Origin: Candidatus Gastranaerophilales bacterium
GTDB taxonomy: Bacteria; Cyanobacteriota; Vampirovibrionia; Gastranaerophilales; Gastranaerophilaceae
Length of the DNA: 42,739 bases
NCBI GenBank assembly: GCA_944325075.1
Contig: CALUYU010000013.1
Span: 1-42,739 of the forward strand
Reading direction: 5' to 3'
The notes below the pieces were generated by a model. That model was given only the letters and a program-made list of their open reading frames with translations, was not told the DNA's origin and ran no database searches. How positions within the stretch are numbered: position 1 is the stretch's first letter; every line of letters starts with the position of its first letter. Position numbers and translations under genes: made by a program. Of this stretch, positions 140 through 41,677 are shown piece after piece.

Positions 140-182
140 AGGGTTGAATATTATCTAGATAATTTTAAGGAGGATTTTAAAT

Positions 183-233
183 ATGCTAAAATTCAATCAT
201 AGTGCGGATTTTCCCGATAGGGGGGGGGGCTAG
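183..233 (+). other. Conserved leader reading frame with G10 tract (frame broken relative to pilin body)
   Basis: ATG 183, correctly spaced from AAGGAGGA, opens a 16-codon frame (MLKFNHSADFPDRGGG) that ends at TAG 231-233 immediately after ten consecutive G bases at 220-229. The pilin-coding frame downstream is offset by one base. Nine Gs (or twelve) would join ATG 183 in frame to the prepilin. Seen directly: SD, ATG, G-run and stop. Inferred: the run is a slippage-prone switch, and this copy is in the OFF or frameshift-dependent state. A sequencing or assembly miscount of the homopolymer is the main alternative. Confidence 0.75.
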
Positions 234-1116
234 GCTACACCTAAAACCGTTATCCCTTGGCCATTACGGCAAATTCTTTGTGTCGGGACAGCGTTATAAA
301 CTCATTTTTAAATATAAGACAATAGCACAGTGCCTGAGGCTCCGCTCGACTCGTAAAGCCGCGTTTACTCTGGCAGAAGTTTTTTTACCATACTATTTAT
401 CGCCTCGCCGAATTGCATTTACACTGGCCGAGGTTTTAATAACCCTTGGCATTATCGGCGTTGTCGCTGCTATGACCTTGCCGACTTTAATTGCAAATTA
501 TCAGAAGCAGGTTACTCTGGCAAAATTAAAGAAAGCATACTCCGTATTATCACAGGTATTAGAAAGAAATTATTATGACCATGGTGATATTGGTTCTTTT
601 GTGGGAACCGGAAGTGAAGTAACAGAGCAAAAAACCCGGGATTTTTTTAATACTTATTGGCTGCCATATTTTGATTCTCCGGAGATTTCAAAAGAAGGAA
701 CATTCCCATATGGTAAATCTGTTCCGTTTCGTGGTTTTGATAATACTACTTTCACTACCAGTGTTACTACTTCATATGCCGATGGAAGAATTGCTCTTAC
801 AACAAAAGATGGGATAAGTTATTATATTTTTACATTGAGATGGGTAGATGTAACAGATGAAAACGGTAATGTGATTGACCGAAAAATGACTTATGCAGAT
901 AATATGCAGGTATTCGTCGATGTTGACGGCACAAAAGGTGAAAATAAGATGGGGAAAGATGTATTTATCTTTCAGATTGATACAACAAAAAATAAAGTAA
1001 ATCCATATGGACATAACCTTTCCAGCTCAGTTCTTGAAAGAAATTGCCCTAATGGAAACGGTTCATATTGCAGCGCCAGAATTTTAAAGGAAGGCTGGAA
1101 GATTTCTTATTTTTAG
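202..1116 (+). CDS. Prepilin-like (type II secretion/type IV pilin family) protein 1
   Basis: The open frame runs from GTG 202 to TAG 1114-1116 (304 codons), but its natural start is probably ATG 183 through the G-tract. The type IV prepilin signature is at residues 73-90: Ala before the cleavage point, then FTLAE with Glu at +5, then a hydrophobic helix (VLITLGIIGVVAAM). The rest is a globular domain of about 215 residues, with an acidic FVDVDGTKGENKMGKDVF segment near 225-245 typical of this pseudopilin group and two late cysteines. Such proteins are normally trimmed by prepilin peptidase and assembled in the envelope. Odd points: the pre-cleavage region exceeds 70 residues, against the usual 5-25, and a second FTLAEV lies 18 residues earlier (55-60). 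The partner machinery is not in the window. The family call is firm; the start and expression state are uncertain. Confidence 0.8.
   Translation: MRIFPIGGGARLHLKPLSLGHYGKFFVSGQRYKLIFKYKTIAQCLRLRSTRKAAFTLAEVFLPYYLSPRRIAFTLAEVLITLGIIGVVAAMTLPTLIANYQKQVTLAKLKKAYSVLSQVLERNYYDHGDIGSFVGTGSEVTEQKTRDFFNTYWLPYFDSPEISKEGTFPYGKSVPFRGFDNTTFTTSVTTSYADGRIALTTKDGISYYIFTLRWVDVTDENGNVIDRKMTYADNMQVFVDVDGTKGENKMGKDVFIFQIDTTKNKVNPYGHNLSSSVLERNCPNGNGSYCSARILKEGWKISYF
220..229 (+). repeat. G10 homopolymer
   Basis: Ten consecutive G in a strongly AT-rich neighbourhood, inside the leader frame of a prepilin-like gene. Runs of this length commonly mutate by replication slippage. Confidence 0.9.
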
Positions 1117-27458: not shown

Positions 27459-27489
27459 AAAGATATAACATATTAAGGAGGATTACATA

Positions 27490-27552
27490 ATGCTAAAATT
27501 CAATCATAGTGATGATTTCAGTCAAGGGGGGGGGGGGCTAAACCTTACCTAA
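27490..27552 (+). other. Conserved leader reading frame with G12 tract (frame broken relative to pilin body)
   Basis: ATG 27490 opens MLKFNHSDDFSQGGGGLNLT and stops at TAA 27550-27552. The G-run spans 27526-27537 (12 bases). The frame of the downstream prepilin (27558 onward) differs by two bases; 13 or 10 Gs would fuse it to ATG 27490. It shares its first seven residues, promoter type and SD with the leader at 183. Confidence 0.75.
27526..27537 (+). repeat. G12 homopolymer
   Basis: Twelve consecutive G in the leader of prepilin-like gene 2, the longest homopolymer of G in the window. Confidence 0.9.
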
Positions 27553-27557
27553 AACCA

Positions 27558-28655
27558 TTGTCCCATGGTCATTATGGCAGATTTTTTGTGTCGGGACATC
27601 GGTATAGACACATTTTTGAATATTTTAGAGTGACTGAGGCTCTGCAGAACCAAAAAAGTAAATCTACAAAAGATAATGTAGGTTGGGGGTGTCACACAAA
27701 CAAAACTAATGTTGAGCCGAAAGTCCAACCTACAAAAAATCTGTATGAGATGCATCGAAAAAAGTCAATAAATAACTCTATATGTCATCCTGAACTGGTT
27801 TCAGGATCTGTCCGCCGTCATGAATATATAGATTCAAGTATCAATAAATCCAATGTTGGGGTGGAAACCCCAACCTACTTTAATTTTAATACTATTTCTT
27901 ATGCATCTCGGAATGCGATGTGGCATGTTAGAGGGAACCTATTCCCTAAGTCCGCGTTTACTTTGGCTGATGTTCTTATAACCCTTGGCATTATCGGAGT
28001 TGTTGCGTCTCTTACACTTCCGGGATTAATCGCCGGATATGAAAAAATTGTTATCGAAACAAAATTAAAAACCGCATATTCGTTAATCGTAAACGCATTT
28101 AAAATGGCCGAAGCTGAATATGGCATCGGGTTTGACTTTTTAGAAAATACGTGGAAAAATGACGATACTCCAAATGGATATAATTTTGAATTTAGTGAAG
28201 CAGTATTTGAAACATACTTAAAACCGCATTTTAAAATCACTAAAAGTTACAATAAAACAGACAGTGTAAATAAATTCACGTATAACAATGGCACTACAAT
28301 AAACGGCAGCCCTAAATGTTATAAACTTGCAAACGGTATGGCAATATGTTTCATTGCCTCTGGCAATATTGACTCCACAGCTTACTTCTACATATTTTTA
28401 AAACCGAATAATAAAAATAAAATAGCCGGACGGGATGTTTTCAATTTTACAGTAAGAAAGAAAAATAAAAATTCATATTTTGGGTATCAGATGATGTCTG
28501 AAGTTTACAAAGAAAATAATCGGCAACAATTTATTGATGGTTGTGTTTCTCCGGAAAGATATCCCATTACAATTTATGATAAGCCGTTTATCTGCACAAC
28601 ATTAATATGGCTTAATAACTTCAGAATACCGGATGATTATCCGATTAAATTTTAA
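27558..28655 (+). CDS. Prepilin-like (type II secretion/type IV pilin family) protein 2
   Basis: The open frame runs from TTG 27558 to TAA 28653-28655 (365 codons); expression probably depends on ATG 27490 through the G12 tract, or on the internal ATG 27918. The prepilin signature is at 134-151: Ala then FTLAD, then VLITLGIIGVVASL. Position +5 is Asp, where Glu is nearly universal and needed for assembly in many systems. The C-terminal domain (160-365) ends with Cys-containing segments. Residues 1-24 (GHYGRFFVSGHRY) match gene 1. Residues 40-110 are translated intergenic repeats (NVGWGCHTNKTNVEPKVQ, CHPELVSGS, SNVGVETPTYF), so the leader seems to have been lengthened by repeat insertion. A start at ATG 27918 would give a normal 13-residue leader but has no SD. 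Confidence 0.75.
   Translation: MSHGHYGRFFVSGHRYRHIFEYFRVTEALQNQKSKSTKDNVGWGCHTNKTNVEPKVQPTKNLYEMHRKKSINNSICHPELVSGSVRRHEYIDSSINKSNVGVETPTYFNFNTISYASRNAMWHVRGNLFPKSAFTLADVLITLGIIGVVASLTLPGLIAGYEKIVIETKLKTAYSLIVNAFKMAEAEYGIGFDFLENTWKNDDTPNGYNFEFSEAVFETYLKPHFKITKSYNKTDSVNKFTYNNGTTINGSPKCYKLANGMAICFIASGNIDSTAYFYIFLKPNNKNKIAGRDVFNFTVRKKNKNSYFGYQMMSEVYKENNRQQFIDGCVSPERYPITIYDKPFICTTLIWLNNFRIPDDYPIKF
27676..27735. repeat. GTAGGTTGG-type inverted repeat inside the prepilin 2 frame
   Basis: ATGTAGGTTGGGGGT at the left and AGTCCAACCTACAA at the right form a long hairpin around ACAAAACTAATGTTGAGCCG. It belongs to the same family as 17721-17978 and 11014-11067. Confidence 0.75.
27783..27810. repeat. 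TGTCATCCTGAAC repeat arm inside the prepilin 2 frame
   Basis: TGTCATCCTGAACTGGTTTC followed by AGGATCTG. It is one arm of the palindromic element seen at 18352-18436, and is read as CHPELVSGSV in the open frame. Confidence 0.75.
27852..27880. repeat. GTAGGTTGGGG hairpin (inverted orientation) inside the prepilin 2 frame
   Basis: AATGTTGGGGTGGAAACCCC followed by AACCTACTT is nearly the exact reverse complement of the repeat starting at 17721. Confidence 0.8.
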
Positions 28656-41612: not shown

Positions 41613-41640
41613 AATTAATACAACCTCGAAAAATAAGAAT

Positions 41641-41668
41641 GACGGTTTAAAACCGTCGTTTTTTTTTT
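41641..41668 (+). terminator. Terminator after small protein B
   Basis: GACGGTT (41641-41647) pairs with AACCGTC (41651-41657), followed by ten T (41659-41668). Confidence 0.85.
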
Positions 41669-41677
41669 GGGGGGGGG
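41669..41677 (+). repeat. G9 homopolymer directly after a T10 run
   Basis: Nine G follow the terminator T-run, about 130 bases before the acetyltransferase gene. It is outside any coding frame. Confidence 0.9.

Follow-up and report, generated by a model that had tools for sequence, protein, structure and literature searches.

Out-of-frame poly-G tracts in the leaders of a large Gastranaerophilales prepilin repertoire suggest phase variation by replication slippage

Two prepilin loci with poly-G leaders

We found two prepilin genes with a poly-G tract in the window, that is, in the whole 42,739-nucleotide stretch of DNA analysed here (contig CALUYU010000013.1). The source is Candidatus Gastranaerophilales, with BRZ_DP bin38, Zag_111 and Scatousia as the named relatives. 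The gene with its ATG at 183 is referred to as the first copy (locus 1), and the one with its ATG at 27490 as locus 2. Their features are as follows.

167..173, + strand: Shine-Dalgarno (SD) sequence AAGGAGG of the first copy, from the sequence
183..219, + strand: leader MLKFNHSADFPDR of the first copy with ATG at 183, from the sequence and leader matches
220..229, + strand: poly-G tract G10 of the first copy; in frame with 9 or 12 Gs
229..1116, + strand: prepilin body of the first copy; N_methyl PF07963, 24.5 bits
27453..27458, + strand: -10-like TATAAT, a putative promoter by consensus match only, 31 bases 5′ of the ATG
27475..27481, + strand: strong SD sequence AAGGAGG of locus 2, from the sequence; the SD-ATG-tract layout is conserved in the order
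27490..27525, + strand: start codon and 12-codon N-terminal leader MLKFNHSDDFSQ of locus 2, from the sequence and genome-wide leader matches
27526..27537, + strand: poly-G tract G12 of locus 2; in frame with 10 or 13 Gs
27490..27552, + strand: predicted OFF product of locus 2, a 20-residue frame-0 peptide ending at TAA 27550–27552
27537..28655, + strand: prepilin body frame of locus 2, with no internal stop and a long leader of about 134 codons with mosaic repeat modules
27957..28652, + strand: mature pilin-like protein of locus 2 starting FTLADVLITLGIIGVVASLTLPGLI, from a 13-sequence alignment and an AlphaFold model

At locus 2, ATGCTAAAATTCAATCATAGTGATGATTTCAGTCAA occupies 27490–27525 with the G12 directly 3′ of it, and frame 0 translates to MLKFNHSDDFSQGGGGLNLT before it stops. 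A preliminary description of this DNA had placed an ATG with an MLKFNHS leader and a G12 at 27526–27537 before an out-of-frame pilin body, which is exact by sequence, and frame translation confirms its statement that 13 or 10 Gs would restore the frame. In the pilin frame, stop codons at 27507, 27510 and 27513 precede the tract, so that there is no entry from upstream of it; this frame can only be accessed via the tract or from a start within the body frame. Possible in-frame starts 3′ of the tract are TTG 27558 and others. The 420 bases from the tract to the mature pilin are open in the pilin frame, and such an opening occurred in only 1 of 20,000 shuffles. From the ATG to the end of the run, locus 2 has a total of 48 nucleotides.

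The leader between the tract and the mature pilin (window 27640–27950) is a mosaic that stays open in frame, and its modules CHPELVSGS, SNVGVETPTY, YASR.A.RHVRGDL and an NVGWGFHPN-like one recur in other pilins. No ortholog of locus 2 was seen in congeners among the matches listed, and the congener matches among them span only the cassette, the repeats and the conserved pilin N-terminus.

The locus 2 protein has the features of a type IV prepilin, namely a cleavage motif and a hydrophobic N-terminal helix, and its mature part (FTLADVLITLGIIG...) is 30–38% identical to twelve other prepilins in an alignment. The AlphaFold model (pLDDT 81) consists of a 53-residue N-terminal helix (residues 3–55) and a sheet. 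A PDB fold search with this model gave no match at E < 0.001, with pilins appearing only at E of about 1.4–1.9. The Pfam N_methyl score is above the cut-off for the first copy and below it for locus 2. Like N_methyl (PF07963) prepilins, these proteins have a FTLAEVLITLGIIG N-terminus, but unlike typical members they have very long repeat-module leaders, and locus 2 has FTLAD instead of FTLAE. In the first copy the cleavage motif is doubled (AAFTLAEVFLPYYLSPRRIAFTLAEVLITLG, window 360–480); other copies show similar doublings.

A genome-wide set of poly-G leaders

The window contains 10 matches to runs of G8 or longer, against 0.32 expected from shuffles, and the genome to which it belongs (the window genome, 2.26 Mb) contains 124 tracts of at least G10. 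The ATGCTAAAATTCAATCATAG leader has 19 matches in this genome with at most three mismatches and 0 for the reversed control. All 19 are followed by a run of G10–G13, and a prepilin frame lies behind nearly all of them; about 20 of the tracts belong to this MLK[FL]NH leader, with prepilin genes downstream. More than 50 further tracts are accounted for by a second leader family, MEKS.I..-G13, which also precedes prepilin genes. Its core, ATGGRAAAGTCAAGTATAGYRCGGCATAC-G13-TAACGAACCTCAAGGG, is present in 72 copies against 0 in the control, mostly with G11–G15. A third, related class (ATGCAAAACCCAATCATAG...G10-CAGACTAAGGG) precedes a frame of 60–90 codons that apparently ends near further prepilin genes; judged by its sequence, this class looks like a leader ORF more than a direct fusion. 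MQNPII-like tracts of the third class were found in L131, L128, L129 and L130 (contigs C34, C15, C16 and C18 of the same genome).

N_methyl is found at 92 places in the window genome, where the long leader after the tract has a median length of 128 residues. About 12 codons past the ATG, the 5′ coding region carries a homopolymer long enough to slip (G10–G14), both half-frames stay open, and a change of ±1 would restore the full protein.

We surveyed 383 genomes of the order, from 52 genera, with the pattern SD-ATG-18 to 45 nt-G10 and with the reversed pattern as a control. The layout was found in 131 genomes and 24 genera, while the reversed control gave almost nothing; raw matches reach about 190 per genome, with several per tract. 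The leader sequences vary between genera and the position of the tract is constant. The preliminary description had proposed to search the genome for the leader and tabulate its G-runs, and had named copies without a G-run as evidence against a family-wide switch. All copies have G10–G13, nearly all with a prepilin frame downstream, and none lacks the run. Its term 'family-wide' holds, on a far larger scale than it had supposed, for every leader copy, for the second leader family and for a third of the surveyed order genomes.

A constant offset of the pilin frame

We investigated the reading frame at 217 prepilin loci, paralogs among them, in 21 genomes; two of the genome handles, G066 and G162, are indistinguishable for nine loci. 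Only 29 loci (13%) are in frame (binomial against one third, 1.5e-11), and since the loci are paralogs and not independent, the p-values overstate their independence. The majority have one G too many (+1). A universal +1 offset was rejected, because some genera are at -1: of the 16 genomes that have four or more loci, ten have a modal offset of +1, five of -1 and one of 0, a value based on 4–6 loci in some of them. When tract lengths were permuted within genomes, the modal-offset sum was 134 (maximum 151), against 173 observed (p 2e-4 or less).

In the MLKFNH family, the total from the ATG to the end of the run is 47 in 17 of 20 copies (permutation mean 7.1, p 5e-5), the G count compensating for the length of the leader; two of the 20 copies have 48. 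Because of this common total, the different offsets of the two window loci are an exception. The preliminary description had taken these two offsets as an argument for a switch, to which we give no weight, as the offset is mostly +1 over the 217 loci and in-frame copies are scarce.

None of the 49 loci of Zag_111 and Scatousia is in frame. Of 191 out-of-frame genes, 90 lack any ATG, GTG or TTG in the pilin frame upstream of the mature N-terminus, including 22 of 23 in Zag_111 and 22 of 26 in Scatousia. From these genes, with no start codon of any type in the pilin frame, a pilin could be made only via a frame change at the tract. An internal start 3′ of the tract is thereby excluded for many loci, less so in the window genome.

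A motif complementary to the Shine-Dalgarno sequence

In several genera, a CTCC motif complementary to the gene's own SD sequence lies 11–16 nt 3′ of the tract. SD/anti-SD pairing of at least 5 nt is found at 87 of 220 loci, compared with 9 of 219 at +100 nt, and the fifth base covaries (53 of 64 against 31.6 by permutation, with Zag_111 dominating). Its reading frame differs between Zag_111 and G042, indicating that the motif is kept as nucleic acid, and it may damp translation. The variants CTCTCC, GCTCC and ATCTCC at loci of Zag_111, G042, G064 and G066 fit each gene's own SD variant. This pairing is present only in some genera and absent at the MLKFNH loci of the window. An RNA hairpin at the two window loci was rejected on folding z-scores of +0.37 and +0.56, which are nothing unusual.

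Phase variation and its alternatives

We consider it probable, on the sequence evidence and by analogy with known systems, that these genes form a large prepilin repertoire subject to phase variation by replication slippage and poised OFF by one G. The G-run would be a slippage contingency tract in leader-peptide codons, one per prepilin gene, and would gate scores of paralogous prepilins. Translation would begin at the ATG 5′ of the tract and, in most copies, which have one G too many, would stop a few codons past it (OFF). Loss of one G (or gain of two) by slipped-strand mispairing would fuse the leader to the prepilin frame; in this ON state, cleavage by a prepilin peptidase at the FTLAE motif could be followed by assembly of the pilin. 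Each cell might have few pilins ON, with many combinations across the population. We infer that slippage causes variation within populations, that pilin is made from the ON genes, and that the variation has an adaptive role, such as adhesion or evasion of immunity or phages.

The G13 family supports this mechanism. Tract lengths are equal in 28% of the pairs of copies less than 5% diverged and in 44–58% of the pairs 5–35% diverged; tract length is thus uncoupled from sequence divergence, suggesting that it mutates faster than the bases. Such free length differences between near-identical copies would be the mark of a hypermutable tract, and this result fits slippage for the G13 family only. 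In one ortholog pair, 99.7% identical downstream, the total is 46 (ON) in a congener and 47 (OFF) in the window genome, the leader having also been exchanged. Change faster than that of the flanks is seen in the G13 family and in this pair, and tract length is very constant in the G10–G11 families. This constancy counts against slippage, together with the absence of in-frame loci in Zag_111 and Scatousia and the total of 47 in most MLKFNH copies, since a freely slipping tract should also reach the other OFF frame. We nevertheless prefer DNA slippage because the experimental precedent and the variability of the G13 family weighed more. The preliminary description thus stands as regards the family-wide occurrence and falls as regards the two offsets, and its switch is the best reading, on the sequence and the Bifidobacterium precedent.

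The constant offset of the G10–G11 families would also be accounted for by the main alternative, programmed recoding, in which the state with one G too many is encoded as such and functional, and slippage in transcription or frameshifting by the ribosome at the G-run yields a fixed share of prepilin, with a net +1 in most genera and a net -1 in a few. Consistent with this, tract length, leader length and downstream frame change without a change in the offset (the 173 against a permuted 134), 17 of 20 MLKFNH copies retain the total of 47, the two genera with 0 of 49 loci in frame mostly have genes without another start, and in some genera the motif past the tract pairs and covaries with the gene's own SD. 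G-runs allow net +1 and -1 frameshifting in herpesvirus thymidine kinase, and in RF2 the +1 frameshift relies on a GG_GGG signal upstream that resembles a Shine-Dalgarno sequence (PMC5009743). The herpesvirus gene and bacterial prfB would resemble the present genes in a net +1 at or beside a G-rich run, but they are single genes with known RNA-level events (PMC5009743), whereas such events are only proposed here. However, other genera are mostly at -1, in-frame genes make up about 13%, tract length varies freely in the G13 family, and the RNA folds of the two window loci are unremarkable. Moreover, the coupling is partly explicable by base substitutions at the tract edge and low slippage at G10–G11, and replication slippage is the mechanism of the Bifidobacterium analogue, whose default offset is the same. 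We therefore regard recoding as unlikely. It seems rather unlikely, too, that the constant offset (+1, or -1 by genus) is itself selected, with a whole paralog family held out of frame and read through regulated slippage on poly-G, either of RNA polymerase or of the ribosome, perhaps aided in some genera by pairing of the SD sequence with the post-tract motif in a helix; if true, recoding would be used genome-wide for a surface-protein repertoire.

Alternatively, the out-of-frame genes might be mostly unexpressed donors for gene conversion into a few in-frame expression loci, the leader cassette serving mainly as a recombination homology block. The leaders are indeed mosaic, those of L002 and L004 are identical over about 100 residues and precede different pilin bodies, and the leader was swapped in the 99.7% identical ortholog pair. 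Such a silent reservoir is nonetheless improbable: the copies retain their own SD sequence, ATG and a mostly open frame of 300–450 codons, and it would leave unexplained why the tracts of donors sit one G from ON.

The tract lengths come from public assemblies and can be wrong, and many contigs of the window genome break at tracts. Still, it is very improbable that poly-G was simply miscounted and that the genes are in reality in frame and constitutive. In favour of a miscount, poly-G is difficult to sequence, annotated lengths were cautioned against in the Bifidobacterium study (PMC9187656), in many contigs a tract lies within 150 nt of the end, and one contig end (L119) has G-rich junk at its tract. 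Against it, independent genomes share the same offset across G10, G11, G12 and G13 tracts, the offset of other genera is -1, and copies at contig ends agree with interior ones. The junk at L119:50–95 resembles the 'G's end' read artefact of poly-G templates (PMC9187656).

Comparison with known systems

Slippage of this kind would have a counterpart in the sortase-dependent pili of Bifidobacterium breve (bbr_0113 and bbr_1889), where an early G10–G11 likewise splits the ORF of the export signal from the body (PMC9187656). In B. breve, G11 and G10 tracts lie between the signal-peptide ORF and the pilin ORF, ON corresponds to -1+3n, and replication slippage was shown experimentally, the ON fraction being 3–6.5% in vitro and, for one locus, about 30% in the mouse gut (PMC9187656). 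A default of one G too many, the -1+3n rule and a gut commensal host are also common to both systems (PMC9187656). However, B. breve has two Gram-positive LPXTG pilin loci and the present repertoire has scores of type IV prepilin paralogs, and slippage was measured there (PMC9187656) whereas here it is proposed from the sequence. Neisseria pilC and the Neisseria poly-G phasome are similar in having a slippage tract in a gene of the type IV pilus system and a genome-wide set of tracts; unlike here, PilC is encoded by one or two accessory adhesin genes, not pilin genes, and a genome has 15–19 poly-G tracts (PMC5953494) compared with the 124 of at least G10 in the window genome.

We found no report of phase variation in the Gastranaerophilales lineage in the open-licence PMC literature. 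The repertoire would be an unusually large contingency system with a single mechanism, in which one kind of tract gates most of about 90 prepilins, in a widespread, uncultured gut lineage adjoining cyanobacteria. Existing metagenome reads could address which pilins are ON in which host, and could distinguish an encoded frameshift from a poised OFF state as the meaning of the +1 default. Automatic annotation will mark such genes as broken or misplace their start.

Other poly-G tracts

Other homopolymers inside genes, counted as a control, gave too few cases for a comparison. Some glycosyltransferase, acetyltransferase and polysaccharide-type genes also have a poly-G tract, internal or at their start (L042:1502; L272:11311, 17354 and 18465; L247:139), in mixed frames. 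With gene names assigned by eye, these are probably ordinary phase-variable glycan genes, as far as their sequences indicate, and tracts inside such genes count in favour of the slippage reading. At L064:1453–1550 (contig C11 of the window genome), two poly-G tracts on opposite strands are about 35 bases apart. In the window, a hairpin at 41640–41677 (GACGGTTTAAAACCGTC) is followed by a T-run and then by a G9, a terminator-like site that runs into poly-G.
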